A stretch of DNA of 35,469 bases from Peterkaempfera griseoplana (lineage in GTDB: Bacteria; Actinomycetota; Actinomycetes; Streptomycetales; Streptomycetaceae): the NCBI RefSeq assembly GCF_001418575.1, contig NZ_LIQR01000299.1:1-35469 (forward strand), given 5' to 3'. The notes under the pieces are model-generated. The model worked only from the letters and a program-made list of their open reading frames with translations. It searched no databases and had not been told where the DNA came from. Each line of letters begins with the position of its first letter. Position 1 is the stretch's first letter. The position numbers were made by a program, and so were the translations under genes. Shown here one piece after another: positions 2,869-25,853 of this stretch.

Positions 2869-2950
2869 TCACCTGTGAAATGGCAGTGCCTTGCCGGTGT
2901 ACACAAATCGCCGGCGGCCTGCCACCGCCATCACGAAGGAGGTCACGACC

Positions 2951-4384
2951 TTGCGAGGTCGCCGTAGAACCGCAGCGCTGCTCGCTGCCCTCCCGCTCCT
3001 GGGCGCCGGAATTCTCAACTCCCCCGTGGCGCAGGCGGCCACCGTCTCCGTCCACTTGCCGGCGACACCCGTGATCAGCGCGTACGGGCGCGTCCACCTC
3101 GCGGTGAACGCGAACGCCCAAACGGTGCACGTCGTCCTGCCGCCCGCCCTGGACCACAAGCTGACGGGCGAGGAGTGGCTGTGGGGATCGCCGAACGCGG
3201 AGGTGACCGTCCCGGTCACCGCGGACTCGCACGGCACCGTGCCGGACGGCGCCGCCTCGTTCGACGTCCCCGTGCCGGACCACGCGGCCCTGGCCAACGC
3301 CATCAGCACCCGCCGCGAGGTGGACCTGATCATCTACAGCACTTACGACTACGACCACGACACGGGATTCCCGACGAGCGACGGCGTAGGCGCCCTCGTC
3401 CAGGTCGACCTGGCCGGCTCGCCCGGACCCACAAGCCTCACCGCGGACCTGCGATCCATCAGCGTCGACGAGTACTACACCCTCCCGCAGCGTGTAGCAG
3501 TCGGCGCCGGCAGCACCCTTCAGATCCAGGCACCCAGCGGCTTCTTCACGCACGGCCCCGGCGGCACGTGGGAGAGCCCCGCCGCCCCCACGCCGACGTA
3601 CACCAACTGGTGCGACTACGGGTACTGCACCAACGCACCCCAGCCCCTGTCCTGGAGCGCCGCAGCCAACGGAAGCGCCCTCAGCGTGGGGATACCCTCC
3701 GTCCTGCCGTACGACCGCGTGACCGCCCAAGACCGCCTGGAGGTCGTCCAGTCGGAGAACGGCGCAGTGGACGATCCCGTCCACGTCCACCTGACCATCC
3801 CCCTGCAGATCTCCGGCGGCACCTCCACCCTCATACCGACGGTCAAGCCCACCATCGCCGGCACCGTGCAGGTAGGACGCACGCTCACTGCCCGCCCGGG
3901 CACCTGGTACCCGAAGCCGGCACGCTCCGGCCTCTACAGCGCGCGCTACCAGTGGATGCGTGACGGCAAGCCCATCACCTTCGCCACCCGCTCCACCTAC
4001 GCCCTGACCGCGGCCGACATGGGGCACCGCATCTCCGTCCGCGTCACCGCCCACATGGCCGACTTCCACGACGGCATCCACACCGCGACGACGTCCACCA
4101 CGGTCACCGGCCTCACCGCGCCCCGCGCGGTCAAGGCGCCCACCGTCACCGGCACCGCCCTCGTCGGCAAGGTCCTGACCGCCCACCCCGGCACCTGGAC
4201 CCCAAAGCCCACCAGCATCACCTACCAGTGGTACCGCGACGGCAAGCTGATCAAGGGAGCCGCGAAGTCCACCTACCGCACCACCCGCGCCGACCGCGGT
4301 CACCGGATCAGCATCAAGGCCACCGCACACCTGGCCGGCCACTACGACGGCCACGCCACCAGCAAGTCCATCACCGTGCGCTGA
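2951..4384 (+). CDS. Secreted protein with two C-terminal Ig-like repeats
   Basis: The start is TTG at 2951, set by AAGGAGG at 2936-2942 eight bases upstream; the frame could be read from 2891 but has no ribosome binding site there. The 477-residue product begins with a classical signal peptide (RGRRRTAALLAALPLLGAG, cleavage near VAQA-ATV). The first 290 or so mature residues are beta-rich and not recognised. The C-terminus holds two copies of an actinobacterial Ig-like repeat of about 85 residues: V/T-G-x-x-x-V-G-x-x-L-T-A-x-P-G-T-W, then YQW..DGK.I, then T..D.GH.IS..., from about residue 300 to the end. One more copy is in the secreted protein at 18976. The repeats probably act as wall- or surface-exposed spacers. 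A strong terminator follows. Confidence 0.88.
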   Translation: MRGRRRTAALLAALPLLGAGILNSPVAQAATVSVHLPATPVISAYGRVHLAVNANAQTVHVVLPPALDHKLTGEEWLWGSPNAEVTVPVTADSHGTVPDGAASFDVPVPDHAALANAISTRREVDLIIYSTYDYDHDTGFPTSDGVGALVQVDLAGSPGPTSLTADLRSISVDEYYTLPQRVAVGAGSTLQIQAPSGFFTHGPGGTWESPAAPTPTYTNWCDYGYCTNAPQPLSWSAAANGSALSVGIPSVLPYDRVTAQDRLEVVQSENGAVDDPVHVHLTIPLQISGGTSTLIPTVKPTIAGTVQVGRTLTARPGTWYPKPARSGLYSARYQWMRDGKPITFATRSTYALTAADMGHRISVRVTAHMADFHDGIHTATTSTTVTGLTAPRAVKAPTVTGTALVGKVLTAHPGTWTPKPTSITYQWYRDGKLIKGAAKSTYRTTRADRGHRISIKATAHLAGHYDGHATSKSITVR

Positions 4385-4428: not shown

Positions 4429-5004
4429 CTTCTCGTGTCTCTCCAGCCGAGCAGAGCCTCCCGGTCCAGAGGCGCGCGACGAAGCCGCGCTGCAGCGAGA
4501 CACGGAAGCGTCGCCCTGTCGCCGGAAGGCGAGAGAGCCACGCAAGGCGATCCGTTACCGCGTTGCGGCCACGTGGGGGCAACGCGCCCGAATCACCCTC
4601 CCACCCACGGCGGGCCGCACCCTGCGCGCACTCGGCACCGCACCGGCCGGCACCCAGTTCAAGGTCGCATGGAACGGGACCGCGCTGGCCATCCCCCAGA
4701 ACATTGCCGCTCGCCGGCCCTGCTGCGCGACGAACCGGCGCGGTGCCGCGCGCCTGCGGCGTTGCCGTTACGCAGCCGTGCGGCGTCCTCGACGCAGGTG
4801 CCGGCAGACCCGGCGGAGACGCCGATCGCCCATGGGACAACAACGACTAGGACGTACTGGATATAGGAGTCAACCCCACCCCGCGGCACCGCACCCGGAC
4901 AGGAGGGCCCGACGTATCCCCGCTCGGGTCACGCCGGGGGCCGTCGGGACGACCGGTGGTGATTTTTTCGGCGCAGGGCATTGCCGGTTCGGCGTCGCGG
5001 TCCT
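4429..5004. other. Gene-poor stretch with a possible coding relic
   Basis: No intact gene is supported in these 576 bases. Around 4570-4695 one plus-strand frame reads like true protein (…RITLPPTAGRTLRALGTAP… then …FKVAWNGTALAIP), the kind of beta-strand text found at the end of secreted enzymes. It degenerates into Arg-rich shadow sequence on both sides, has no start signal and no partner. It may be a fragment of a lost secreted protein. The rest shows nothing identifiable. Confidence 0.3.
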
Positions 5005-5026
5005 AGTTTAATTTCTTAACTTAACC
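5005..5026. promoter_or_regulatory. AT-rich repeat, candidate ROK repressor operator
   Basis: AGTTTAATTTCTTAACTTAACC stands out sharply as AT-rich in GC-rich DNA, 28 bases before the kinase start codon. It holds GTTTAA facing TTAAC (5006-5020) as an imperfect inverted repeat and an overlapping CTTAACTTAAC direct repeat. ROK-family repressors commonly bind AT-rich operators of this sort. The repressor gene at 16399 closes the same locus, so it is the natural ligand. That pairing is inferred. The element may also overlap the operon promoter. Confidence 0.5.
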
Positions 5027-5053: not shown

Positions 5054-5971
5054 GTGCTGTCACCGGTCGTCCTGGGGATCGACTTCGGAGGTACCAAGAC
5101 CGCGCTGGCAGTCGCCCGCGCCGACGGGGCCCGGCTGGGGACGGTGACGGTGCAGACGCCGGTCGAGCAGGGCGCCGGGGCCAGCCTGCGACGCGCCGTC
5201 GGCGCGGCGCGGGAACTGCTCGGCGAGGTGGCGGCCGGGCAGGGACCGGCCGCCGTCGGGGTGGCGACGATCGGTGTCCCCGGGGAGGACGGGGCCGAAC
5301 TGGCGCCCAACATCCCCGGCTGGAGCGGGCTCGCCCTCCGGCGCGAGCTGCGGCAGGCCTTTCCCGGGGCCGAGATCCGGCTGGCCAACGATGTGAAGGC
5401 CGCCGCGCAGGCCGAGGCCGAGACGGGGGCGCTGCGCGGCTGCGACCCGGGCATCTACCTCAATCTGGGCACCGGCCTGGCCGTGGCACTGGTGGTCGGC
5501 GGCAGGGTGGTCGCCGGACACCGCGGAGCCTCCGGCGAGATCGGCTACAACCTGCTGCGCGTGGCCGACGTGGGACGCCCGGCGGCCGGCCGGGTACCCC
5601 TGGAGGACGTGGTCAGCGGGCGCGCACTGGGGTCCGCCGCCGCGGACCTGCTACCGCCCGGCCGCGACGCCGAACAGGTCTTCGCCCGCGCCGCACACGA
5701 CCCGCGGGCCGCCCGGGCGCTGGACCGCTTCCTGACCGAGCTCGCCTTCCACCTGGTCAACCTGGCCAATGTGGTCGACCCCGAGCGGATCGCCGTCGGC
5801 GGCGGAATGGTCCGCTCCTGGGACGCCCTGCACGGCCGGCTGCGCCACGCCCTGGACGCCGCCGTGCCGTACCCGCCGCAGCTCGTGCCCGCCGCCTACC
5901 CGTACGACGCACCGCTGCGCGGCGCGCTCGGACTCGGCCTCTCGGCCGTGCAGCACCGCTCCCCACTCTGA
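5054..5971 (+). CDS. ROK-family sugar kinase (cytosolic)
   Basis: The start is GTG at 5054 with GAGGAGG (5043-5049) just upstream. The 305-residue protein has the ROK/glucokinase fold: the ATP-phosphate loop DFGGTKT (residues 10-16), the catalytic Asp in LANDVKAA (about D113), the second phosphate loop NLGTGLA, and GASGEIGY. Proteins like this phosphorylate glucose, N-acetylglucosamine, mannose or glucosamine at C6. The ROK zinc signature (His in GEIGH and the CxCGxxGC cluster) is absent: the His is Tyr and no cysteines follow. The gene opens the sugar-uptake operon, 26 bases before the binding-protein gene, so it most likely phosphorylates the imported amino sugar. The exact sugar is not shown by the sequence. 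Confidence 0.88.
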   Translation: MLSPVVLGIDFGGTKTALAVARADGARLGTVTVQTPVEQGAGASLRRAVGAARELLGEVAAGQGPAAVGVATIGVPGEDGAELAPNIPGWSGLALRRELRQAFPGAEIRLANDVKAAAQAEAETGALRGCDPGIYLNLGTGLAVALVVGGRVVAGHRGASGEIGYNLLRVADVGRPAAGRVPLEDVVSGRALGSAAADLLPPGRDAEQVFARAAHDPRAARALDRFLTELAFHLVNLANVVDPERIAVGGGMVRSWDALHGRLRHALDAAVPYPPQLVPAAYPYDAPLRGALGLGLSAVQHRSPL

Positions 5972-5997
5972 TCCAGGTCATGAAGGGACAGTCAGCA

Positions 5998-7713
5998 ATG
6001 AGGCGCTTCAGACTTCTTGCCGCCGTGCTGGCGCTGGGCATGGCCACGGCCGCCTGCTCGGCGACCCAGCACCGGACCGGTTCCGACTCCTCCTCCGGCA
6101 CCCCGTCCCGCACGTCCGGCGCCGGCACGCCGGCGAACGGCCCGCACAAGAAGGGCGGCACCGTCACCATCGCCAACGAGCAGGGCCAGACCTGGACCTG
6201 CCAGTTCAACCCGTTCAACCCCGCCGCCTACCTGGAGTCCAACGGTTTCGTCTACGAGCCGCTGATCTACGTGGACTCGCTGAACAACCAGGCCGAGACG
6301 CCGATGCTGGCCACCGGCTACCGGTGGAACGCCGACAAGACCCAGATCGTCTTCACCGTCCGCGACGGTGTGAAGTGGAACGACGGGCAGCCGTTCACCG
6401 CCGCCGACGTCGCCTTCACCTTCAACCTGATGAAGCGGGTCCCCGCCACCGACCTCTACGCGCTGTGGAGCGCGGCCGGGCTGAAGAGCGTGACCGCCTC
6501 CGGCAACCAGGTCACCCTGGCCTTCAAGCAGACCGCGGAGACCTACTTCTACGCCTTCGCCGACCAGGTGAGCATCGTTCCGCAGCACATCTTCGGCAGC
6601 GGCGAGGCCGCCGCCCACCCGGACACCTGGGCCGACCCGCACCCGGTGGGGACCGGCCCGTTCAAGGTCGACCCCTGCAGCCCCAACAACATCCAGTACA
6701 CCGCCAACTCCGGCTACTGGCAGGCGGGCAAGCCGTACATCCAGAAGGTCGAGTACCCCGCGTACCTGGACAACGGCCCCGCCAACCTGGACCTGGCGGC
6801 CGGCAAGGCGCAGTGGGGCAGCCAGTTCATCCCGGGGATCAAGAACTTCTACCTCGACAAGTCGCCGGACAACCACACCTGGTCCCCGCCGGTGCTCAAC
6901 GTCTCGCTCTTCCCGAACCTCGACCCCTCCCACAAGGCGACCAGCAATCCGGCGGTACGTCAGGCGATCGCCCACGCGATCGACCGCTCCCGGGTCGCGG
7001 CCATCGGCGAGGGCGGTCAGGAGCCGCCCGGCAACCAGTCCGGCGTGGTGCTGCCGACGTTCCAGAAGTACTACGACGCGGGCGCGGTGAGCGCGGCCGG
7101 CTACGACAAGCCCGATCCCGCCAAGGCCGCCCAGCTGCTGTCCGGCGCCGGGTACTCGCCCGCGCACCCGCTCAAGCTCAGCGTCATCACCATCACCGGC
7201 TACACCGACTGGGACGCCTCGCTCGCGGTGATCAAGCAGCAGCTCAAGCCGATCGGGATCGACCTGACCGTCCAGGACCTGGCCCAGCAGACCTTCGACA
7301 CCCGGCTGTACACCGGCGACTTCGACCTCGCCTACTACGGCGAGCCGACCGGCGGCCCGACCCCCTACTACGAACTGCGGGAGATCCTCGCCTCCGCCAA
7401 CACCGCGCCGCTCGGCAAGCAGGCCAACGGCAACTACGAGCGGTACCGCAACCCGGCCGTCGATGCGCTGTTCCAGCAGTACGCGACCGCCGACGACGCC
7501 GGGCAGGTGGCGATCGTCAAGCAGATCGAAGCCGCGGTGATCAAGGACGTCCCGGTGATCCCGGTGACCGAGTCGGTCGACTGGTTCCAGTACAACACCG
7601 CCGACATCGCCGGCTGGCCGACGCCGGAGGACCCGTACGCCCAGCCCGCCGCCTTCAACTTCCCCGACGCCGGCCAGGTGCTGCTCCACCTGTACTCCAA
7701 GGCCGCCCAGTAG
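5998..7713 (+). CDS. ABC transporter substrate-binding lipoprotein (SBP family 5)
   Basis: The ATG at 5998 has AAGGGA nine bases upstream; an in-frame ATG at 5980 is less likely. The 571-residue product starts with a lipoprotein signal (MRRFRLLAAVLALGMATAAC, modified Cys20). It has the layout of DppA/OppA-type binding proteins, including the family hallmark RDGVKWNDGQPFTAADVAFT near residue 120. It would sit on the outer face of the membrane and deliver ligand to the two permeases encoded next. Although this family is best known for peptides, some members bind chito-, cello- or manno-oligosaccharides. The flanking glycosidases and kinase point to an oligosaccharide here. Confidence 0.92.
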   Translation: MRRFRLLAAVLALGMATAACSATQHRTGSDSSSGTPSRTSGAGTPANGPHKKGGTVTIANEQGQTWTCQFNPFNPAAYLESNGFVYEPLIYVDSLNNQAETPMLATGYRWNADKTQIVFTVRDGVKWNDGQPFTAADVAFTFNLMKRVPATDLYALWSAAGLKSVTASGNQVTLAFKQTAETYFYAFADQVSIVPQHIFGSGEAAAHPDTWADPHPVGTGPFKVDPCSPNNIQYTANSGYWQAGKPYIQKVEYPAYLDNGPANLDLAAGKAQWGSQFIPGIKNFYLDKSPDNHTWSPPVLNVSLFPNLDPSHKATSNPAVRQAIAHAIDRSRVAAIGEGGQEPPGNQSGVVLPTFQKYYDAGAVSAAGYDKPDPAKAAQLLSGAGYSPAHPLKLSVITITGYTDWDASLAVIKQQLKPIGIDLTVQDLAQQTFDTRLYTGDFDLAYYGEPTGGPTPYYELREILASANTAPLGKQANGNYERYRNPAVDALFQQYATADDAGQVAIVKQIEAAVIKDVPVIPVTESVDWFQYNTADIAGWPTPEDPYAQPAAFNFPDAGQVLLHLYSKAAQ

Positions 7714-7749
7714 CGGGCGGCGTCCCCACCGAAAGGAGGTGTGTCCGCG

Positions 7750-8739
7750 TTGAGGCACCTGCTCCGGCGACTGGGTTTCTTCCTGCTCACCTTGTGGGCC
7801 GCGCTGACCCTGAACTTCCTCATCCCGAGGTTCATGCCCGGCAGCCCGGTCACCGCACTGCACGACCGCACGCGCGGCAAGGTCTCCGCCGCGGCGCTGG
7901 AGCAGATGCTCACGTCGTTCGGTTTCCGCCCGCACCAGAACATCGGCTCCCAGTACCTGCAGTACCTGGGCAACATGGTGACCGGCCACTGGGGCCTGTC
8001 CATCGGCCAGACCCTGGGCGAGCCCGTCACCACCCTCATCGGCCAGGCCCTGCCGTGGACGCTGGGCCTGGTCGGGACCGCCACCGTGCTGGCCTTCCTC
8101 CTGGGCACCCTGATCGGTGTGCTGGCGGGCTGGCGGCGCGGCGGGCGGCTGGACACGGTGCTGCCGCCGGTCTTCGTGGTCACCTCGGCGCTGCCCTACT
8201 TCTGGGTCGCGCTGCTGCTCATCCTGGTCTTCTCGGTCTGGACCGGCGGCCTGCTGCCCAGCGACTTCAACTACGACAACACCATCGTGCCCGGGTTCTC
8301 CCCCGGCTTCGTCGGCAGCGTGCTGCAGCACGCGGTACTGCCGGGCGCGACCCTGCTGATCACCTCGATCGGGGGGTGGATCCTGACCATGCGCAACAAC
8401 ATGATCACCGTCCTGGCCGAGGACTACGTCCGGATGGGCCGGGCCAAGGGGCTGAGCAACCGCCGCATCATGTACGACTACGCGGCCCGCAACGCGATCC
8501 TGCCCAACCTCTCCGGCTTCGCCATGTCGCTGGGGTTCGTCATCTCCGGCGCCATCCTCGTCGAGTACGTCTTCAACTACCCGGGGCTCGGCTATCTGCT
8601 CTACAACGCGGTGCAGAACGTCGACTACCCGCTGATGCAGGCGCTGTTCATGCTCTTCACCGTCGCCGTGCTGGCCGCCGTGCTGGTCTGCGACCTCGCG
8701 ACGCTCTGGCTCGACCCGCGCGCCCGGGCGAAGGGGTGA
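7750..8739 (+). CDS. ABC transporter permease, DppB type
   Basis: TTG at 7750 is the likely start: AAAGGAGG at 7732-7739 is ten bases away, whereas the GTG at 7741 touches it and is too close. The 329-residue protein begins RHLLRRLGFFLLTLWAALTL, the typical first membrane segment of DppB/OppB permeases, and has about six membrane helices. The cytoplasmic coupling loop (EAA loop) is visible as DYVRMGRAKGLSNRRIM. It pairs with the permease half of the next protein to form the pore. It lies 36 bases after the binding-protein gene and only seven before the next gene. Confidence 0.92.
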   Translation: MRHLLRRLGFFLLTLWAALTLNFLIPRFMPGSPVTALHDRTRGKVSAAALEQMLTSFGFRPHQNIGSQYLQYLGNMVTGHWGLSIGQTLGEPVTTLIGQALPWTLGLVGTATVLAFLLGTLIGVLAGWRRGGRLDTVLPPVFVVTSALPYFWVALLLILVFSVWTGGLLPSDFNYDNTIVPGFSPGFVGSVLQHAVLPGATLLITSIGGWILTMRNNMITVLAEDYVRMGRAKGLSNRRIMYDYAARNAILPNLSGFAMSLGFVISGAILVEYVFNYPGLGYLLYNAVQNVDYPLMQALFMLFTVAVLAAVLVCDLATLWLDPRARAKG

Positions 8740-8746
8740 GCGCGCC

Positions 8747-10687
8747 ATGGCGATGAACACCCCCGTACGCAGGCCCGGCGGCGGGCTGTGGCGCGCGCTA
8801 CGCGGCAGCCGCAAGGCGACGGCCGGAGCCGTCATCCTGCTGCTCTTCGCCGTGATGGCCGCCTTCCCCGGACTGTTCACCTCGGTCCGGGACGCCAACG
8901 CGCTGGACTTCGCACCCCGCCTGGGCCCGTCCACCAGGCATCTGCTGGGCACCACCGCACTGGGCCAGGACATCTGGTCCCAACTCGTGTACGGCACCCG
9001 CCAGTCGCTGGTCATCGCGCTGGTCGCCGGCTTCCTGGCCACCGTGCTGTCGGTGCTGGTCGGGGTGTCCGCGGCCTACCTGGGCGGACTCCTCGACGAC
9101 CTGCTGTCGATGCTGATCAACGTGGTGCTGGTGATCCCCGCCTTCCCGCTGATCATCATCCTGGCCAAGTACGCCGGCCGCGGCTCGCTCACCGTGATGC
9201 TGACCGTCCTGGTCGTCACCGGCTGGTCGTACGGCGCCAACCAGATGCGCGCCCAGGCGCTGTCGCTGCGCAACCGGGACTTCCTGGAGGCGGCCCGGGT
9301 CCGCGGCGAGCGGCGCTCGTACGTCATCGTGGCCGAGGTGCTGCCGACCATGACCTCGCTGATCGTCGCCAACTTCATGGGCGCCGCGCTGTACTCGGTG
9401 CTCAGCGCGGCGGGCCTGCAGTTCCTCGGTCTGGGCGACCCCAACTCGGCCAGCTGGGGCACCATGCTCTACTGGGCGCAGAACCAGCAGGCACTGCAGA
9501 CCGGTTCGCCGCTCTGGTCGCTGGCCCCGGGGCTGTGCGTGGCACTGCTCGGCGCCTCCTTCGCGCTGATCAACCACGCCTTCGACGAGATCGGCAACCC
9601 GGCGCTGCGCCCGGTACGGCGCCGGGGTGCGGCACCGGCCGCCGCGGCCCCGCCCGTCGACTCCGCGGCGTCCGATGCGCAGAGCGAGGACTCCCCGCTG
9701 CTGCGGGTGAGCGGGCTTCGGGTGGCGTACCAGGGCGCACGCGGTCCGGTGGAGGCCGTGGCGGGAGTCGACCTGACCGTCCGGCGGGGCCAGTTCACCG
9801 CCGTGGTGGGCGAGTCGGGCTGCGGCAAGTCCACCCTGCTCTTCGCGATCGCCGGACTGCTCAGCGCACCCGCGGCGGTCACCGCAGGGAGCGTGCTGTT
9901 CCGGGGCGACAACCTGGTCACCATGACCGAGAAGCAGCTCAATGCGCTGCGCTGGCGCGACTACTCGGTGGTCATGCAGAGCGCGATGAACGCGCTCAAC
10001 CCGGTGCGCACGATCGGCGCCCAGTACCGGGACGCGATGCGCGCCCACGGGACGTTCACCGCCGAGCAGGTCCGGGCCCGGTCGGTGGAGGTGCTGGAAC
10101 TGGTCGGCATCGACCCGGTCCATCTGCGCAGCTATCCCCACCAGTTGTCGGGCGGGATGCGGCAGCGCGCGATGATCGCGATGGCGCTGCTCTTCACCCC
10201 GGACCTGGTCATCATGGACGAGCCGACCTCGGCGCTGGACGTGGTGGCGCAGCGCTCGCTGATGGTGCAGATCAAGGAACTGCAGCAGCTGCTGGGCTTC
10301 GCGGTGCTCTTCGTCACCCACGACATGTCGCTGGTCCGTCACTTCTCGGACCAGCTACTGGTGATGTACGCCGGTCAGGTCGTCGAGGCCGGTCCGACCC
10401 GTACCGTCTTCGACACCCCGGCGCACCCCTACAGCCGGGGGCTGCTGGAGGCCTTCCCGTCGGTCCGCGGTCCCCGGGTCGAGCTGCGGGGCATCACCGG
10501 CAGCCCGCCCGATCTGGCCCGGCCGCCGCACGGCTGCCGGTTCGCGCCGCGCTGCCCGGTGGTGGAGGAGCGGTGCCGCGAGTGGGAACCCGAGCTGTAC
10601 CCGGTCGGGGAGGTGCGGGCGCGCTGTCTGCTGCAGGCTCCCGACCGCCGGACCCGTCCCCTGCCGCCCGTGGAGGCGACCTCATGA
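8747..10687 (+). CDS. Fused ABC permease (DppC type) and ATPase (DppD type)
   Basis: One 646-residue frame joins two subunits that are usually separate. Residues 1 to about 290 are a DppC-type permease with an N-terminal helix, the GTTALGQDIWSQLVYGTR motif typical of DppC, and an EAA loop (EAARVRGERRSYVIV). After an Ala-rich linker (about 290-315), the rest is an ATPase. It has Walker A GESGCGKST (about 355-363), signature LSGGMRQR (about 467-474), Walker B LVIMDEPTSALD, the His-switch THD, and the C-terminal oligopeptide-transporter tail with Cys pairs (CRFAPRCPVVEERC). The start ATG follows AGGGG after ten bases. The stop codon overlaps the next ATG (ATGA), so the two ATPases are translationally coupled. 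Such fusions are known in actinobacteria. Confidence 0.93.
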   Translation: MAMNTPVRRPGGGLWRALRGSRKATAGAVILLLFAVMAAFPGLFTSVRDANALDFAPRLGPSTRHLLGTTALGQDIWSQLVYGTRQSLVIALVAGFLATVLSVLVGVSAAYLGGLLDDLLSMLINVVLVIPAFPLIIILAKYAGRGSLTVMLTVLVVTGWSYGANQMRAQALSLRNRDFLEAARVRGERRSYVIVAEVLPTMTSLIVANFMGAALYSVLSAAGLQFLGLGDPNSASWGTMLYWAQNQQALQTGSPLWSLAPGLCVALLGASFALINHAFDEIGNPALRPVRRRGAAPAAAAPPVDSAASDAQSEDSPLLRVSGLRVAYQGARGPVEAVAGVDLTVRRGQFTAVVGESGCGKSTLLFAIAGLLSAPAAVTAGSVLFRGDNLVTMTEKQLNALRWRDYSVVMQSAMNALNPVRTIGAQYRDAMRAHGTFTAEQVRARSVEVLELVGIDPVHLRSYPHQLSGGMRQRAMIAMALLFTPDLVIMDEPTSALDVVAQRSLMVQIKELQQLLGFAVLFVTHDMSLVRHFSDQLLVMYAGQVVEAGPTRTVFDTPAHPYSRGLLEAFPSVRGPRVELRGITGSPPDLARPPHGCRFAPRCPVVEERCREWEPELYPVGEVRARCLLQAPDRRTRPLPPVEATS

Positions 10688-11775
10688 CCGCGGAGACCGC
10701 CGGAGCAGCGGGGACTGCCGGGACCACCGCAGCCACCGGGACGCACGGGCCTGCGGACACCGCTGCCCGGCCGGCGCTGCTGGAGACCGTCGGCCTCACC
10801 CGGCACTTCCGGGTCGGCGGCGGTCTGTCCCGCCGTACCCTGCACGCCGTCGACGACGTCAGCCTGGTGATCCACGACCGGGAGATCGTCGCCCTGGTCG
10901 GCGAGAGCGGCAGCGGCAAGTCCACGCTCGCCCGGCTGCTGGCGCAGGTGTACCGGCCGACCGGCGGGGAGATCCGCTACCAGGGACGGTCGCTCGCCAC
11001 GCTGCGCGGACGCCGGGCGCAGCTGGCGTACCGCAGTGATGTGCCGATGGTCTTCCAGGACCCCTTCAGTTCCCTCAACCCGGCCTACCGGGTGTCGCAC
11101 GGCATCCTGCGCGGGCTGGCGCTGCACCGGCCCGGGCTCGGCAGGGCCGAGCGGCGCGCGGAGGCCGAGCGGGTGGTCGAGGCGGTGGGGCTCGCCCCCG
11201 CCGCCGAGATCCTCGACCGGTACCCGCACGAGCTGTCCGGCGGGCAGCGGCAGCGGATCGGCTTCGCGCAGGCCCTGGCCTACCGGCCCCGGCTGATCCT
11301 GGCCGACGAGCCGGTGTCGATGCTGGACGTGTCGATCCGGATCGGTCTGCTCAATGTGATGACGCAGCTGCGCGAGCGTGAGGGCGTCTCGATCCTCTAC
11401 ATCACCCATGACATCGCCAGTGCCCGCTATGTCGCCGACCGGCTGCTGGTGATGTACGGCGGACACGTCGTGGAGTCGGGGCCCACCGAGGCCGTCCTCA
11501 CCGCCCCCAGACATCCCTACACCCAGTTGCTCCTCTCGGCGGTGCCGGATCCACGGGCGCCGCTGGAGGTGGACGCCGCGGCGGCGCGCTCCGATCCGCC
11601 CGCGGTGATCGATCCGGCCCCGGGCTGCCGTTTCCGTGCCCGGTGCCCGTTGGCGGTCGACGCCTGCCATGCCCTCACCCCGCGGCTGCGGGAGCTGGGT
11701 CCGGCACACGCCGCCGCCTGCCATGTCGCCGAGGCGGACGCCCCGAGCCCCCGGGCGTCCGCCGCACCGGCCTGA
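10684..11775 (+). CDS. ABC transporter ATPase (DppF/OppF type)
   Basis: This 363-residue protein starts at the ATG that overlaps the previous stop (ATGA). It carries Walker A GESGSGKST (residues 73-81), Q-loop VFQDPFSSLNPAYR, signature LSGGQRQR (about 184-191), Walker B LILADEPVSMLD (about 204-215) and switch THD. It ends with the C-terminal oligopeptide-transporter motif (CRFRARCPLAVDAC). About 25 low-complexity Ala/Thr/Gly residues precede the domain. It works as the second nucleotide-binding subunit alongside the fused one, powering import. It ends 44 bases before the first glycosidase gene. Confidence 0.93.
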   Translation: MTAETAGAAGTAGTTAATGTHGPADTAARPALLETVGLTRHFRVGGGLSRRTLHAVDDVSLVIHDREIVALVGESGSGKSTLARLLAQVYRPTGGEIRYQGRSLATLRGRRAQLAYRSDVPMVFQDPFSSLNPAYRVSHGILRGLALHRPGLGRAERRAEAERVVEAVGLAPAAEILDRYPHELSGGQRQRIGFAQALAYRPRLILADEPVSMLDVSIRIGLLNVMTQLREREGVSILYITHDIASARYVADRLLVMYGGHVVESGPTEAVLTAPRHPYTQLLLSAVPDPRAPLEVDAAAARSDPPAVIDPAPGCRFRARCPLAVDACHALTPRLRELGPAHAAACHVAEADAPSPRASAAPA

Positions 11776-11819: not shown

Positions 11820-14660
11820 ATGGCACGTCACGGAAGGCATCCGATTGTCGCGACGGTGGCCCTGGCGGTCGCCGCAGTGACCGCGCTGCAAAGCGGCCCC
11901 ACCCCCCGGGCCGGTGCGCCGGCCCCCGTCGCCCTGTCCGCCCCGGCGACCGGCAGCACCGCGGTGGCCGATCTGGGCTCCGCCACCGGCTGGAAGGTGG
12001 TGAGCAGCGCCACGGCCACCCAGTCCGGAGCCCAGATCTCCACTCCGGGCTTCGGCACCTCCGGCTGGCTGACCGTCGCCAACGACGGCGGCGGCGCACC
12101 GGGGACCGAGATCAAGGCGCTGCTGGAGAACGGCAGCTGCCCCAACGTCTTCACCTCCACCACCATGAAGTCCTGCTTCGGGCAGATGACCAAGGTCGGC
12201 CCCGAGACCATCGCCCAGTTCTCGGTGCCCTGGTGGTACCGGACCGACTTCACCGCACCGCCCGCCGGACAGAACGCCAAGCTGGTCCTGAACGGCGTGG
12301 TCGGAGCGGCGGACGTCTGGGTCAACGGCACGCAGGTGGCGACCGCGGCGACGGTCACCGGTGCCTACGCACGCAATGTCTTCGACGTCACCGGGCTGCT
12401 GCTCCCGGGGACCAACTCGGTGGCGATCGAGATGCACCCCAACGATCCGAGCAGCATGCTCACCCTGGACGACGTGGACTGGAGCCAGATCCCGCCGGAC
12501 AACAACACCGGCATCCAGTTCCCGGTGCAGCTGCAGACCGGCGGACCGCTGGTGGTCGGCAACGCCCATGCCGTGCCCAACACCGCCGCGGATCTGAGCA
12601 GTTCGGCGCTGACCGTCAAGGCGGACGTCACCAACACCTCGGCGAGCGCGCAGACCGGCACGGTCTCCGCCACCGTCACCCCGCCGGGCGGCGGCACCCC
12701 GGTCACGGTCAGCCAGAGTGTGACCGTGGCGGCGGGCTCCACCCAGACGGTCTCCTTCACGCCCGCCTCGTACCCGGGGCTGACCCTCGCGAGCCCGCAG
12801 ATCTGGTGGCCCTACCAGCTCGGCGGACAGCCGCTGTACACGCTCGGCACCTCGGTGGCGCAGGGCGGCACGGTGCTCAACTCGACCAGCGGCACCTTCG
12901 GGATCCGCACCGTCACCTCGTACCTGACCGGGGCGTCGTCGGCGGCGCCGAGCGGGGTGCGAGCCTTCAAGATCAATAATGTGCCGCTGGTGGTCCGCGG
13001 CGGCGGCTGGTCCCCGGACCTGTTCCTGCGCTACGACCCGGCGGACACCGCCCAGCAGATCGGCCTGATGAAGTCGATGGGCATCAACACCGTTCGCCTC
13101 GAGGGCCATCTGATGCCGGCCGACTGGTACCAGCAGATGGACGCCGCCGGGATCCTGGTCAACGCCGGGTACCAGTGCTGCGACTTCTGGGAGAGCACCA
13201 GCTACACCGCCGCCCAGCAGGCCGTCTACCAGCTGACCGCGAAGACCGTCGGCGAGACCCTGCGCAACCACCCGTCGGTCTTCAGTTTCCAGTGGAGCGA
13301 CAACGCACCGACCGCGACCCAGGAGTCGCTGGCACTGGCGGGCTTCGCCGCGGCCGACTACACGGGCCCGTTCATCGCCTCCGCGGAGTACAAGAGCAGC
13401 CCGCAGCTGGGCGCGGCGGGTGAGAAGGAGGGCCCGTACGACTGGGTGCCGCCGAACTACTGGTACGACACCACCCACAGCAGCGGCGGCGACCTGACCA
13501 ACTCCGGCGGTGCGTGGGGCTTCGACAGCGAGCAGAGCGCGGGCAACACCGTCCCCACCCTGGACTCGATCAACCGATTCCTGTCCCCGTCCGAGCAGTC
13601 GGACCTGTGGCAGTCGCCGGGCGCCAACCAGTACCACAACAACTACGAGGGCACCAAGCACACCGGCTACCACTTCGGCACCCTCTACAACCTCGACACC
13701 GCGATCACCAACCGCTACGGCGCCTGGACGAGCCTCAACCAGTACGTCCAGGAGGCGCAGGTCCAGAACTACGAGGACACCCGGGCCCAGTTCGAGGCCT
13801 TCGTCGCCCACTCGGCCAACACCTCGGCGCCGTCCACCGGAACCATCTACTGGCAGCTGAACAAGGGCTGGCCGACCCTGCTCTGGTCGCTCTGGAACAA
13901 CGACGGCGACCAGGCGGGAGCCTACTTCGGCGCACAGAAGGCCAACCGGCCGCTGCACGCCCTCTACACCCTGGACAACGGAACGGTGACGGTCGACAAC
14001 CTGGGCGGCGCCACCCAGTCCGGGGTGACGGTCGAGGCCAAGGTGTACAACACCGCCGGCACCCTGCTCGACGACCGGACCTCGGGCAGCCTCACCCTGG
14101 CCTCCCAGCAGGTGGTCAGCTCCGTGCTGACCCCCAGCACCCCCACCACCGCCGGCACGGTCTACTTCGTCGAACTGCTGGTGCGGCAGAACGGCACCCT
14201 GGTCGACCGCAACGTCTACTGGCAGCCGACCACGCCGGACGTCCCCAACTGGAACAAGACCATCGGCCAGCCGCAGGCCGCCATGTCGCAGTACGCCAAC
14301 CTCAAGGCACTGCAGAGCCTGCCCCAGGCCACCGTCTCGGCGACCGCCACCACCAGCAGCCACGCGGGCCCCAACGGGGCGGACAGACTGGTGACGGTCA
14401 CCGTCACCAACACCTCCAGCCGCCCGACCGTCGGGTTCTTCCTGCGGGCCGACATCCGGCGGGGAACCACCTCCGGGACCGAGCTGGCGGGCGACAACGA
14501 ACTGCAGAGCTCGATCTGGGGCGACAACGACGTGACGCTCTGGCCCGGTGAGTCGGAGACGCTCACCGCGAGCTACAACTCGGCCGACCTCCGGGGCGCC
14601 ACACCGGTGGTCAGCGTCTCCGGGTGGAACGTGCCCACCTTCGACGTCCTTGCGGGGTGA
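11820..14660 (+). CDS. Secreted GH2 enzyme, exo-beta-D-glucosaminidase type
   Basis: ATG at 11820 follows AAGGAG by six bases. The 946-residue product has an N-terminal export signal (about 1-35), a GH2 sugar-binding domain with WWYRTDF, Ig-like domains, then the TIM barrel and C-terminal beta domains. The barrel resembles the CsxA branch of GH2: in place of the usual Asn-Glu there is WSDN with Asp494 as acid/base, and GFDSEQSAG supplies nucleophile Glu571, 77 residues on. CsxA-type enzymes remove glucosamine from the non-reducing end of chitosan oligomers; the same branch includes plant endo-beta-mannosidases acting on N-glycans. The end motif YWQLNKGWPTLLWSL is also typical. Export plus the GH20 gene seven bases away suggests extracellular breakdown of amino-sugar oligomers. 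The subfamily is well supported, the substrate less so. Confidence 0.88.
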   Translation: MARHGRHPIVATVALAVAAVTALQSGPTPRAGAPAPVALSAPATGSTAVADLGSATGWKVVSSATATQSGAQISTPGFGTSGWLTVANDGGGAPGTEIKALLENGSCPNVFTSTTMKSCFGQMTKVGPETIAQFSVPWWYRTDFTAPPAGQNAKLVLNGVVGAADVWVNGTQVATAATVTGAYARNVFDVTGLLLPGTNSVAIEMHPNDPSSMLTLDDVDWSQIPPDNNTGIQFPVQLQTGGPLVVGNAHAVPNTAADLSSSALTVKADVTNTSASAQTGTVSATVTPPGGGTPVTVSQSVTVAAGSTQTVSFTPASYPGLTLASPQIWWPYQLGGQPLYTLGTSVAQGGTVLNSTSGTFGIRTVTSYLTGASSAAPSGVRAFKINNVPLVVRGGGWSPDLFLRYDPADTAQQIGLMKSMGINTVRLEGHLMPADWYQQMDAAGILVNAGYQCCDFWESTSYTAAQQAVYQLTAKTVGETLRNHPSVFSFQWSDNAPTATQESLALAGFAAADYTGPFIASAEYKSSPQLGAAGEKEGPYDWVPPNYWYDTTHSSGGDLTNSGGAWGFDSEQSAGNTVPTLDSINRFLSPSEQSDLWQSPGANQYHNNYEGTKHTGYHFGTLYNLDTAITNRYGAWTSLNQYVQEAQVQNYEDTRAQFEAFVAHSANTSAPSTGTIYWQLNKGWPTLLWSLWNNDGDQAGAYFGAQKANRPLHALYTLDNGTVTVDNLGGATQSGVTVEAKVYNTAGTLLDDRTSGSLTLASQQVVSSVLTPSTPTTAGTVYFVELLVRQNGTLVDRNVYWQPTTPDVPNWNKTIGQPQAAMSQYANLKALQSLPQATVSATATTSSHAGPNGADRLVTVTVTNTSSRPTVGFFLRADIRRGTTSGTELAGDNELQSSIWGDNDVTLWPGESETLTASYNSADLRGATPVVSVSGWNVPTFDVLAG

Positions 14661-14667
14661 GGTGACC

Positions 14668-16233
14668 ATGCGACTGCGACAGACCCTGACGACACTGCTG
14701 GCCGCACTGGGCCTGGTGGCAGCCGGCCTGCTGGCCTGCGCCGGCCCGAGCGCGGCGGCGGGCCTCCCCAACACCGTGGTGCCGGCCCCGGTCAGCGTGG
14801 TCTCCGACGGCAGCACCTTCACGCTGACCCCGGCGGCCACCCTCACCTCCGACGACGCCGGCGTCGGCGGCTATCTGGCGAGCATCCTGCGCGCCTCCAC
14901 CGGGTACGCCCTGCCGCTCACGGTCGGTGCGTCCGCTCCGGGCAGCATCGCGCTGCAGCTCTCCGGGGCCCCCGGCAGCGTCGGCGCGGAGGGCTACCAG
15001 CTCACCACCACCGCCACCGGCGTGGTCCTCCGGGCCCAGCAGCCCGCCGGGCTCTTCCACGGCGTGCAGACCCTGCTCCAACTGCTGCCGCCGGCGGTGA
15101 TGAGCAGCACCGTGCAGCCCGGACCGTGGACGGTGCCCGGCGGCACCGTCCTGGACTACCCGCGCTTCGGCTACCGCGGGGCGATGCTCGACGTCGCCCG
15201 GCACTTCTTCACGGTGGCCCAGGTCAAGCACTACATCGACGAGTTGGCGCTGTACAAGGTCAACATCCTGCATCTGCACCTCTCCGACGACCAGGGCTGG
15301 CGGATCGCCGTCAACAGCTGGCCCAACCTGGCGACCTACGGCGGCAGCACCCAGGTCGGCGGCGGCCCCGGGGGCTACTACACCCAGGCCGACTACTCGG
15401 CGATCGTCTCCTATGCGGCGTCCCGCTTCATGACCGTGGTCCCCGAGATCGACATGCCCGGCCACACCAACGCCGCGCTGGCCTCGTACGCCCAGCTCAA
15501 CTGCAACGGCACGGCGCCCGCGCTCTACACCGGCACGAACGTCGGCTTCAGCTCGCTGTGCGTGCCGCTGCCGCTCACCTACACCTTCCTCGACCAGGTG
15601 ATCGGCGAACTGGCCGCCCTGACCCCCGGTCCCTATCTGCACATCGGCGGGGACGAGGCGTCCTCGACCACCGCCGCCGACTACGCCTCGTTCCTCGGCC
15701 AGGTGCAGCAGATCGTCGCCGCGCACGGCAAGACGGTGGTGGGCTGGCACGACATCACCCACGCCACGCTGCAGCCCTCCGCCGTCGCCCAGTACTGGGG
15801 CACCACCGCCTCGGACTCCGCCGTGGCGGCTGCGGCGGCGGGCGGGACCAAGGTCGTCATGTCCCCGGCCAACAAGGCGTACCTGGACATGAAGTACACG
15901 CGCAAGATCAAGCTCGGTCAGACGTGGGCCGGGCTGATCGACGTCAACACCGCCTACGGATGGGACCCCGGCAACTACCTCACAGGAGTGACCGGAGCCT
16001 CGGTCCAGGGCGTCGAGGCGCCGCTGTGGACCGAAACCATCGTCACCTCGGCGGACATCGACTACATGGCCTTCCCCCGCCTCCCGGCCCTGGCCGAACT
16101 CGGCTGGTCCCCGTGGTCCACGCACGACGTGACCGCGTTCGACCAGCGGCTGGCGGCCCAGGGACCGCGCTGGAAGGCCATGGGCGTCAACTACTACCAC
16201 TCGACCCAGATCAGCTGGCCCAGCGGCTCATGA
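14668..16233 (+). CDS. Secreted GH20 beta-N-acetylhexosaminidase
   Basis: ATG at 14668 is preferred, with GGTGAGG just upstream; GTG at 14662 is possible. The 521-residue protein has a signal peptide (RLRQTLTTLLAALGLVAAG). A Cys in LLAC could make it a lipoprotein, or cleavage may fall after PSAAA. A GH20b domain follows (to about 150), then the GH20 barrel. Hallmarks are HLSDDQGWRI, the catalytic pair Asp329-Glu330 in HIGGDEAS, and the substrate-wall motif EAPLWTETI. GH20 enzymes remove terminal GlcNAc or GalNAc with retention, using the substrate's acetamido group. With the GH2 enzyme it would strip mixed GlcN/GlcNAc chains or N-glycans from the non-reducing end. The family call is secure. 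Confidence 0.93.
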   Translation: MRLRQTLTTLLAALGLVAAGLLACAGPSAAAGLPNTVVPAPVSVVSDGSTFTLTPAATLTSDDAGVGGYLASILRASTGYALPLTVGASAPGSIALQLSGAPGSVGAEGYQLTTTATGVVLRAQQPAGLFHGVQTLLQLLPPAVMSSTVQPGPWTVPGGTVLDYPRFGYRGAMLDVARHFFTVAQVKHYIDELALYKVNILHLHLSDDQGWRIAVNSWPNLATYGGSTQVGGGPGGYYTQADYSAIVSYAASRFMTVVPEIDMPGHTNAALASYAQLNCNGTAPALYTGTNVGFSSLCVPLPLTYTFLDQVIGELAALTPGPYLHIGGDEASSTTAADYASFLGQVQQIVAAHGKTVVGWHDITHATLQPSAVAQYWGTTASDSAVAAAAAGGTKVVMSPANKAYLDMKYTRKIKLGQTWAGLIDVNTAYGWDPGNYLTGVTGASVQGVEAPLWTETIVTSADIDYMAFPRLPALAELGWSPWSTHDVTAFDQRLAAQGPRWKAMGVNYYHSTQISWPSGS

Positions 16234-16398: not shown

Positions 16399-17604
16399 AT
16401 GGACGAACTGCCCTGGAGCAGACGGCTGTTGCGCCGCAACAACGAATGGCTGCTGCTGGAGCGGCTGCGCTCCGCCGGGGCCGCCTCCCGGGCCCAGCTG
16501 GCCCGGGACAGCGGGCTGTCCAAGCCGACCGTCTCCTCCGCGCTGGCCGCCCTCGAACAGGCCGGCCTGGTCCGCCCGGCCGGCACGCTCGCCCCCGAGC
16601 GGGGCCGCATCGCCATCCTGTACGAGCCCGACCCCACCGCGGGCCATGTGCTCGGCATCGACATCGGCCGGGCCCGGCTCCGCACCGCCGTCGCCGACCT
16701 CTCCGGAGCCCTGGTCGCCCGGGTGGACCTGCCCAACCGGGGGCGCAGCGCCGGTTCGGTCGCCGACGCCGTGATCGACGCCGCCGCACGGGCCGTCACC
16801 GCGGCCGGGATCACCAGCGCCGACGTCGTGCATGTGGCGGTGGGAACGCCCGGCGTCTTCGACCCCCGTACCGGCCGCGTCCAGTACGCCGTCAACCTGC
16901 CGGGATGGGGACGGCCGGGCCTCTTCGCGCGGATCCGGGAACGGCTCGGCATCGCGCTCTCCGTCCACAACGACGCCAACCTCGCCGCACTCGGCGAGTA
17001 CGCCTTCGGCGCCGGCGCGGGCAGCCCCCTCTTCGTCTACCTCCTGATCGGCACCGGTCTGGGCATGGGCGTGGTGGCCGACGGCCGGCTGTTCGAGGGC
17101 GCCCACGGCGCCGCGGGCGAGATCGGCTACCTGGCGCTGATGGAGGAGCTGCCGGAGGCCGGCCGCGCACCGCGCCGCGGAGTGCTGGAGGACGCCGTCT
17201 CCGCGGACGCCGTCGTCCGCGCCGCGCGCCGGTGCGGCATGACCGGGCCGCTGACGGCCAAGCGGGTCTTCGACGCCGCCCGGGCCGGCAGCGAGCCCGC
17301 GATCGCCGCCGTCCAGCAGGAGGGCCGGCGGCTGGCCCTGGTGGTGGCCTCGGTCTCCGCAGTCCTCGACCCCGACCTGGTGGTCCTCGGCGGCGGCGTC
17401 GGCCACAGCGCCGACCTGCTGCTCGACATCGTGCGGAGCACGCTGCACCGGCTCACCCCGCTGCGTCCCGCCGTGGCGCCCAGCGCCCTCGGCGAGGACG
17501 CCGTGCTGCTCGGCGCCATCGCCACCGCGCTGCGGACCGCCCGGCCGCTCGTCTTCGAGCGCCGTACCGCGCGCGCCGCCGGCCAGGACCCCTCGGGCAC
17601 CTGA
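16399..17604 (+). CDS. ROK-family transcriptional repressor
   Basis: The 401-residue product has an N-terminal winged helix (about 15-62: SRAQLARDSGLSKPTVSSAL) joined to a ROK sugar-sensing domain. The latter shows the phosphate-loop-like GIDIGRARL, the ND motif HNDANLAALGE and GAAGEIGY. As in the operon's kinase, the zinc-binding CxCGxxGC cluster is missing and the motif His is Tyr. The DIGRARL loop lacks the GGT of kinases, so it probably binds sugar without phosphorylating it. It lies 165 bases after GH20, beyond a terminator. By family it would repress the operon until the imported sugar or its phosphate binds; the AT-rich repeat at 5005 is the likely site. Family sure, target inferred. 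Confidence 0.9.
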   Translation: MDELPWSRRLLRRNNEWLLLERLRSAGAASRAQLARDSGLSKPTVSSALAALEQAGLVRPAGTLAPERGRIAILYEPDPTAGHVLGIDIGRARLRTAVADLSGALVARVDLPNRGRSAGSVADAVIDAAARAVTAAGITSADVVHVAVGTPGVFDPRTGRVQYAVNLPGWGRPGLFARIRERLGIALSVHNDANLAALGEYAFGAGAGSPLFVYLLIGTGLGMGVVADGRLFEGAHGAAGEIGYLALMEELPEAGRAPRRGVLEDAVSADAVVRAARRCGMTGPLTAKRVFDAARAGSEPAIAAVQQEGRRLALVVASVSAVLDPDLVVLGGGVGHSADLLLDIVRSTLHRLTPLRPAVAPSALGEDAVLLGAIATALRTARPLVFERRTARAAGQDPSGT

Positions 17605-24863: not shown

Positions 24864-25853
24864 GTGTCCGATGACGTAGCAGCCACCACGCGAACAGCAG
24901 CCGAGGAGCGAATCCGGCAGGTCTTCACCGCGGTCGGGGCGAGAGGGCAGTTGCACGCCGTTCCTCTCGCAGCACGCACACCGGTCGCCGGAACGACCGA
25001 CGGCGAGCAGCGTGTCGGTGAGGTCGCCGTGGGCGCCGACGACGCCGTCGTCATCGCTTCGATCTTCAAGATCCTGCTGGTCCTGGAGTTCGCCCGGCAG
25101 GTCGCGGCCGGTCAGCTCGACCCGAGGCAGCGGGTGCGGGTGACCTCGGCCGACAGACTCGGCGGCTGGGGCACCGCCGGATGCCTGGACGATCTCGAGC
25201 TGTCGTTGCGGGACCTGGCCTACTTCACGATGTCCGTCAGCGACAACTCGGCGGCCGATCTGCTACTGGACCGGGTGGGACTGGACACCGTGAGACTGCT
25301 CGCGAAGGAACTCGGCCTGGACCGGACCCGGATCGTGGGCGGCCCGCGGGACCTGCTGGAGTCGATGCTCGCGGAGGTCGGAGCGCGCGACGAGAGGGAG
25401 TTCGCCGTCCGCTACCCGGCTCTGCCGGACGAGAGGAAGAGACGGCTGGCCATGCTCGACCCCGCCCACGCCACGGCCAGCACACCCCGGGAGATCACCC
25501 GGCTGCTCCAGCTCGTGTGGACCGATGCGGCAGGGCCACCGGAAGCATGTGCGTTCGTGCGCGACCTGATGAGCAAGCAGGTCTTCCGCCATCGGTTGGC
25601 GTCGGGTTTCCCGGACGACGTCGTGGTCGCGGCCAAGACCGGGACCCTGCCGGGGCTGCACATGGAGGCGGGCGTCGCCCGTTACCCGGACGGCGCGTGC
25701 TATGCGATCGCCGTCTTCGCGCGCACCCATGATGTGAGCACCTCCCGCGCCTCGGTGGACGCGGCGATCGGCCGGGTCGCCGGGATCGCGGCCGATTCCC
25801 TCCGGGGCGCCGGTGACCAGGACACATATGCTTTCGCGTATCGCCGGGGCTGA
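24864..25853 (+). CDS. Class A beta-lactamase-related serine hydrolase, apparently cytosolic
   Basis: GTG at 24864 has AGGGAA five bases upstream. The 329-residue product carries the three penicillin-recognition motifs: SIFK with Ser66 and Lys69, SDN at 126-128 and KTG at 258-260. The order and spacing suit the class A fold. Two oddities stand out. There is no signal peptide or Tat motif at the N-terminus, although these enzymes normally act outside the membrane. The omega-loop Glu-x-x-Leu-Asn, which gives class A enzymes deacylation, is not found between SDN and KTG. It may thus be an amidase- or esterase-like hydrolase rather than a resistance enzyme. Divergent LysR control is likely. Confidence 0.85.
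   Translation: MSDDVAATTRTAAEERIRQVFTAVGARGQLHAVPLAARTPVAGTTDGEQRVGEVAVGADDAVVIASIFKILLVLEFARQVAAGQLDPRQRVRVTSADRLGGWGTAGCLDDLELSLRDLAYFTMSVSDNSAADLLLDRVGLDTVRLLAKELGLDRTRIVGGPRDLLESMLAEVGARDEREFAVRYPALPDERKRRLAMLDPAHATASTPREITRLLQLVWTDAAGPPEACAFVRDLMSKQVFRHRLASGFPDDVVVAAKTGTLPGLHMEAGVARYPDGACYAIAVFARTHDVSTSRASVDAAIGRVAGIAADSLRGAGDQDTYAFAYRRG

Follow-up and report, generated by a model that had tools for sequence, protein, structure and literature searches.

A predicted GH2_16 exo-beta-D-glucosaminidase in a chitosan-type operon of Peterkaempfera griseoplana

A 35,469-nucleotide stretch of Peterkaempfera griseoplana DNA (assembly GCF_001418575.1, contig NZ_LIQR01000299.1; Streptomycetaceae), here called the window, encodes a glycoside hydrolase family 2 (GH2) protein within an operon that also carries an ATP-binding cassette (ABC) importer. 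Which glycan does this enzyme cleave? An initial annotation had assigned the protein to a branch with quite different substrates and held that the substrate would reveal the purpose of the whole operon. The latter point is upheld by our analysis, as the substrate is largely readable as the terminal glucosamine (GlcN) of chitosan oligomers rather than the mannose of N-glycans, which settles the matter as far as sequence can. We consider it very likely that the protein is a secreted, retaining exo-beta-D-glucosaminidase of subfamily GH2_16 in a chitosan-type operon. The active-site residues, phylogeny, gene context and operators agree on this reading, and each is described below.

The GH2 gene (11820-14660, + strand) starts behind a plausible ribosome-binding site at 11820 and encodes 946 amino acids, with an N-terminus that, read by eye, is basic and then hydrophobic in the manner of a secretion signal. 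Pfam searches identified an Ig_GlcNase domain (PF18368; 74.7 bits, cut-off 26.3) together with the GH2 domains PF00703 and PF22666. In a phmmer search of the PDB, the nearest solved protein was CsxA of Amycolatopsis orientalis (2vzs; E = 1e-174 over residues 6-943), followed by a beta-mannosidase at E = 2.4e-16. An AlphaFold2 (AF2) model, used for fold only (mean predicted local distance difference test score, pLDDT, of 72), was also nearest to CsxA, both in Foldseek (3e-68, against 3e-36) and in VIA, where four of the seven CsxA entries reached Z values of 39-40 and mannosidases at most 24.8; these Z values are quoted loosely, given their two-level spread among CsxA entries of one run.

In CsxA, PMC6566704 assigns binding of the GlcN amine to Glu394 and the acid/base role to Asp469, which is directly preceded by Ser468. 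A MAFFT alignment paired Arg426, Glu428, Ser493, Asp494 and Glu571 of the window protein with Arg392, Glu394, Ser468, Asp469 and the nucleophile Glu541 of CsxA, respectively. The corresponding codons were verified on the + strand at 13095-13097 (Arg426), 13101-13103 (Glu428), 13296-13298 (Ser493), 13299-13301 (Asp494) and 13530-13532 (Glu571), with Trp492 at 13293-13295. Thus, the predicted acid/base Asp494 lies within a Ser-Asp (SD) motif (13296-13301) that replaces the Asn-Glu (NE) motif, and the predicted nucleophile is Glu571. This agrees with the initial annotation, which had named this Asp/Glu pair and had delimited it at 13299-13532, exactly from the Asp494 codon to the Glu571 codon; in the alignment Asp494, and no other residue, falls on CsxA Asp469. 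The five residues are conserved in 80/80 sequences of the clade to which the window protein belongs (the window clade) and in 33/33 CsxA-clade sequences, and their match is therefore not a matter of chance; sequences not spanning approximately CsxA positions 305-840 had been removed beforehand, and several rows are second copies from one genome.

Other proteins with a PF18368 domain have a different active site. In all nine paralogues covering these columns, a Trp is located two residues past the Arg and NE is present at the acid/base position (W/NE), whereas a tenth (L088) does not cover the motif columns. The paralogue Trp falls one gap column away from Glu394 in the MAFFT alignment, and its equivalence is based on its spacing from the Arg. 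One of these paralogues (L001, contig C149) is encoded in the host genome itself, and combines PF18368 and a W/NE active site with an F5/8C domain and mannosidase-type immunoglobulin (Ig) domains. Since PF18368 is found there together with W/NE, the Ig_GlcNase domain alone is no proof of a glucosaminidase.

The initial annotation had taken the Asp replacement as a mark shared by exo-glucosaminidases and endo-beta-mannosidases, and this part is not supported. A clustering of 2007 placed both activities in one subfamily (PMC1976428), but the 2025 division of GH2 separates exo-beta-glucosaminidases (GH2_16) from endo-beta-mannosidases (GH2_17), describes the SD motif of GH2_16 as strictly conserved, and reports that at a loop-2 position Glu replaces His in GH2_16, with Trp there in GH2_13 and GH2_17, the subfamilies of mannosidases (PMC12243196). 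SD would thus mark GH2_16, and the loop-2 Trp GH2_17. Judging from its contact with the amine, we infer that CsxA Glu394 is this loop-2 residue. The window protein has Ser493-Asp494 at the acid/base site, Glu428 rather than Trp at loop 2, the loop-7 nucleophile Glu571 and Arg426, which we take as the strand-2 Arg of the description; its E-value to CsxA of 1e-174, a phmmer value rather than one from the published network, compares with the GH2_16 network cut of 1e-59. With SD and the loop-2 Glu both present, the motif itself already favors glucosamine over mannose. In the terms of these published descriptions, the plant GH2_17 endo-beta-mannosidases share GH2 group II with the window protein and differ by their loop-2 Trp, endo action and N-glycan substrate. 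With GH2_17 set apart by description in this way, the combination of SD and loop-2 Glu can serve to separate GH2_16 glucosaminidases from GH2_17 mannosidases in annotation.

A phylogeny with CsxA, which had also been suggested at the outset, placed the protein in a sister clade of CsxA and apart from the W/NE paralogues, in line with the CsxA kinship first proposed. In this quick maximum-likelihood tree of 74 sequences, which included 33 of the 80 window-clade rows, the SH-like approximate likelihood ratio test (SH-aLRT) gave 95 for the CsxA clade (33 rows), 100 for the window clade (33 rows), 100 for the W/NE group (8 rows) and 100 for the branch separating SD from W/NE sequences; the program warned that long branches meet between the window clade and the outgroup, making the root less sure. 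Sequence comparison assigns the window protein to a lineage of its own beside CsxA (GH2_16; PDB 2VZO, 2VZS, 2X09). Both share the fold, the SD motif, the nucleophile Glu, the amine-binding Glu and secretion, and an operator type and a ROK-family regulator are common to the two clades. They differ in that window-clade proteins are approximately 34-39% identical to CsxA (about 38% for the window protein), in that the window protein lacks the C-terminal module beyond CsxA residue 896, and in that its operon includes an ABC importer and a GH20 gene. Moreover, from approximately CsxA position 294 onward, 20 alignment columns are at least 95% fixed within each clade and yet differ between the two, including G467W, S498E, M510E, M643Q, S646K, T649P, S650T, H652L and D657N (CsxA numbering). 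Six of the 20 are located between CsxA 643 and 657, and G467W adjoins the SD motif.

To these comparisons we added a search of 297 Streptomycetaceae genomes with the A. orientalis CsxA orthologue, with no more than four candidates scored per genome. CsxA-clade matches were present in 33 genomes (34 with a fragment in G223; identity 57-71%, fragments from 54%) and window-clade matches in 23 (identity 41-43%), and no genome among the 297 had both (Fisher p = 0.09). One A. orientalis genome, from another family, does carry both clades. Of three genomes of the host genus among those listed, only the host has the window GH2 gene, a count that is not a rate.

The genes surrounding the GH2 gene, all on the + strand, fit the processing of amino sugar oligomers. 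The operon starts with a ROK-family sugar kinase without a helix-turn-helix (HTH) domain (5054-5971; PF00480, 1.3e-31), whose nearest solved relatives are a glucokinase (3vov, 1.2e-23) and then an N-acetylglucosamine (GlcNAc) kinase (7p7i, 2.6e-17); it is likely a kinase of GlcN, GlcNAc or a related hexose. There follow the components of an ABC importer: an SBP_bac_5 lipoprotein as binding protein (5998-7713, start at 5980 or 5998; PF00496, 5.4e-62), an OppB/DppB-type permease (7741-8739; PF00528, 6.5e-42), an OppC-OppD-type permease-ATPase fusion (8747-10687; PF00528 and PF00005 in one frame) and an OppF-type ATPase whose start overlaps the preceding stop (10684-11775; PF00005, 5.9e-31). Downstream of the GH2 gene, and only 7 bp past its stop, is a GH20 beta-N-acetylhexosaminidase with a signal-like N-terminus (14668-16233; PF00728, 1.3e-84; 1hp4, 8e-190), in which the GGDEA motif is kept. 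Finally, 166 bp beyond the GH20 gene, a ROK-family repressor with an HTH domain is encoded (16399-17604, open frame from 16306; PF00480, 1.2e-47, plus HTH models). This repressor is 66% identical to the ROK protein beside CsxA in locus L142, and 40% identical to the host's CsnR-like ROK protein.

The binding protein is closest, among solved proteins, to the chito-oligosaccharide-binding proteins of Vibrio, VhCBP and VcCBP (best 2e-48; 1zty, 1.2e-42), and 5YQW is VhCBP with (GlcNAc)2 (PMC8449061). Asn204, Trp363, Asp365 and Trp513 of VhCBP serve as the criterion for oligosaccharide-binding proteins of cluster C/IV. When the alignment was read by eye, Asn204 and Asp365 were kept and the two Trp residues were not; taken with the residues that in VhCBP recognize N-acetyl groups, discussed below, this sequence pattern suits a ligand poor in such groups, without proving it.

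Operators resembling the CsnR box are frequent in both clades. According to PMC6097792, CsnR represses chitosanase genes via AGGAAANTTTCCT, and (GlcN)2 competes best. In the window, an AT-rich operator-like site, CCTAGTTTAATTTCTTAAC (5002-5020, no strand assigned), lies 33 bp upstream of the ROK kinase gene with which the operon begins. It is the best of the window at 17.4 bits, under a matrix of ten distinct sites from outside the host that was built after this site had been seen by eye, and one of 300 Markov-shuffled windows reached the same score. The same matrix gave 18.3 bits for the orthologous promoter of L137, and 30.1 bits for the CsxA orthologue promoter of the A. orientalis genome with both clades, where the window-clade module also has an operator. 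Operators of at least 17.3 bits were found in 76/91 loci, which include some of the loci used to build the matrix and some species represented more than once. Exact CsnR boxes precede the window-clade gene in three Catenulispora-group loci (L014, L056 and L065), and among 15 CsxA promoters of 500 bp each, the box was found with one or two mismatches in ten, with three in one, and with at least four in the remaining four. Operators of ROK-family regulators are alike in general, and the site at 5002-5020 therefore does not name its regulator. Direct control of the operon by CsnR was considered and rejected, the 13-bp box being absent from the promoter, which leaves a related site only.

The host genome also contains other chitosan genes. 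A GH46 chitosanase gene has a box approximately 26 bp upstream (30.6 bits), and genes for a ROK protein, an SBP_bac_1 protein, two permeases, a GH4 protein and a BadF-type kinase, in csnREFGHK order, have a csnR-like box (29.0 bits); each box is one mismatch from the extended, 17-bp form of the CsnR box. Allowing up to three mismatches, the 17-bp box occurs at four places in the host genome, against one for a reversed control, and the two further places are C120:15083-15099 and C388:4210-4226 (G000). As described in PMC6097792, the csnREFGHK cluster of Streptomyces combines a ROK repressor, an ABC importer, a kinase, a hydrolase and a CsnR-box-type operator, as the window operon does with its own operator-like site. 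The two differ in their parts, however: in the csnREFGHK-like cluster of the host, the importer is of the SBP_bac_1 type and is accompanied by GH4 and a BadF-type kinase, whereas in the window operon an importer of the SBP_bac_5/Opp type is accompanied by a ROK-type kinase and by GH2 and GH20 enzymes that are secreted. The host genome contains both.

Carrying the chemistry over from CsxA, we propose a retaining double displacement in which Glu571 would attack the anomeric carbon of the non-reducing terminal GlcN, Asp494 would first donate and then abstract a proton, and Glu428 would hold the free C2 amine, so that mannose and GlcNAc would be disfavored at subsite -1. The secreted GH2 enzyme would trim terminal GlcN and the secreted GH20 enzyme terminal GlcNAc, thereby cutting down the mixed oligomers of partly acetylated chitosan, for example those released by the GH46 chitosanase of the host. 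From gene context we infer the later steps: short products would be taken up through the Opp-type ABC importer, the ROK kinase would phosphorylate them, and repression by the ROK repressor would be lifted once products appear.

The neighborhoods of relatives add to this context. In 63 named window-clade loci (L066 and L067, at 23 and 37% identity, were left out), we found GH20 genes in 11, GH8 in 7, ROK repressors in 20, ROK kinases in 27 and amino-acid-type (APC) permeases in 28. One GH8 protein was examined, and was nearest to 5xd0, a 'Glucanase' (4e-63), then to chitosanases (2e-46 and 4e-46), with a cellulase at 7e-17. A Micromonosporaceae metagenome-assembled genome (MAG) locus, L012, is the sole named locus with both a solute-binding protein and OppB, and it also has a ROK gene. 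Among 22 window-clade loci of the host family, many of which share species with the named loci, GH20 was present in nine and GH8 in four. Near the 15 CsxA loci, a ROK protein 64-69% identical to that of the window was encoded in eight and an APC permease in nine.

Several observations weigh against a chitosan-directed exo-glucosaminidase. In the AF2 model, pLDDT falls below 50 in the active-site loops, and three of the seven CsxA entries had VIA Z values of about 28, no better than the GH2 protein CapGH2b (28.2). The complete window operon was found in 0/63 named loci and in only one of the 22 host-family loci (L137), whose stretch showed no ROK repressor. In the binding protein, Tyr replaces Trp363 and Phe replaces Trp513 of VhCBP, and the N-acetyl-recognizing Arg436 and Phe437 are not kept. 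The operator site at 5002-5020 is weak; no AGGAAANTTTCCT box within three mismatches is present in the operon promoter, and the whole 35-kb window has three such 13-bp matches where 1.83 are expected. No operator above 12 bits was detected in 10/91 loci, namely seven MAG loci (mostly Streptosporangiaceae, several of them short) and three CsxA loci. Lastly, N-glycan genes occur among the 63 named loci, with PNGase A in 14 and GH92 in one.

The alternative that survives best, which we regard as possible although the less probable option, is that the protein is a GH2_16 member preferring another GlcN-bearing glycan, such as GlcN-GlcNAc hetero-oligomers or de-N-acetylated cell-wall fragments, over homopolymeric chitosan. 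The 20 fixed differences from CsxA, with their cluster at 643-657 and the G467W, S498E and M510E changes, and the GH20 partner are consistent with such a preference, and the A. orientalis genome with both clades suggests that the two may not be redundant. On the other hand, the operator family is the same as that of CsxA and the regulator is related, and the lack of co-occurrence in the 297 family genomes fits interchangeable enzymes.

Far less probable is a bacterial endo-beta-mannosidase whose substrate would be Man-beta-1,4-GlcNAc of N-glycans, with the operon serving N-glycan salvage. This would be in keeping with the single subfamily of the older clustering, the adjoining GH20 gene and the PNGase A and GH92 genes just mentioned, and, according to PMC12243196, no GH2_17 member from bacteria has been characterized. 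However, all 14 PNGase A loci are from Amycolatopsis and GH92 is limited to one genome; in the two loci inspected (L022 and L036), the PNGase A gene is found 1.8 kb or more past the kinase gene, from which an opposite-strand gene separates it. We set this reading aside given the loop-2 Glu in place of Trp, the SD motif, the grouping with CsxA apart from the W/NE paralogues, and the context of GH8 genes and CsnR boxes. That the protein is simply a beta-galactosidase or beta-glucuronidase, the kind of name an automatic pipeline may give it, can practically be dismissed, because the four weak NCBIfam matches to GalA, GalB and beta-glucuronidase models are all far below their cut-offs (e.g., 67.6 against 900 and 27.2 against 544 bits) and SD stands in place of NE.

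Three further features were noted alongside the operon and its relatives. Upstream of the operon, 2891-4384 (+) encodes a secreted-looking 497 amino acid protein with only weak, below-cut-off matches to Ig-type domains, and farther downstream a class A beta-lactamase-like gene (24864-25853, +; PF13354, 3e-52) is followed by a gene with a metallo-beta-lactamase fold (25900-26931, +). In addition, a C-terminal module of approximately 160 amino acids (residues 527-690 of the GH8 protein; examples at L142 9914-11437, - strand, and L017 13604-15676, + strand) reappears with 49-59% identity in 6/15 CsxA loci, at the C-terminus of neighboring proteins that are different elsewhere. Pfam gave no match to it in the three proteins tested, nor did the PDB in the one tested, and it may represent a so far undescribed module that binds chitosan or the wall.

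For the predicted exo-glucosaminidase itself, the enzyme type is known and ordinary in kind; the branch and its transporter arrangement look little studied, and our searches of the open-access literature turned up no publication dealing with the window clade or with glucosamine import by an APC permease. The points of interest are thus the sister clade and its two linked transporter types. In 28 of the 63 named loci (Pseudonocardiaceae), an APC permease gene is located directly upstream of the GH2 gene, as in L036 (8445-9872, +), and this permease is linked to GH2_16 genes of both clades. A ROK kinase gene lies directly downstream of the GH2 gene in 27/28 of these loci, 19 of them were scored as having a divergently oriented ROK repressor gene, and all 28 permease promoters contain GTTAAGAAACTTTACTAAC or a variant with 15-19 of its 19 bases. 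The host has only distant relatives of the APC permease (best 27%), and its operon has the ABC importer instead.

Being linked to both clades, the APC permease may be a candidate glucosamine importer. Tentatively, and with the odds against it, one may go further and view the window clade as a distinct exo-glucosaminidase branch for mixed GlcN/GlcNAc oligomers, with the GH2_16-linked transporters as glucosamine or chito-oligosaccharide importers: the Opp/CBP-type ABC system here, and the APC permease for free glucosamine in Pseudonocardiaceae and Streptomyces-family genomes. How actinobacteria transport monomeric GlcN was described as an open question in 2018 (PMC6097792), and if the proposal is true, the APC permease would be a route for this sugar. 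One operator-defined set joins the characterized CsxA with its sister clade, in which we saw no characterized protein, with a ROK repressor and with the candidate importers, and this makes glucosamine uptake by actinobacteria testable by simple gene removals.

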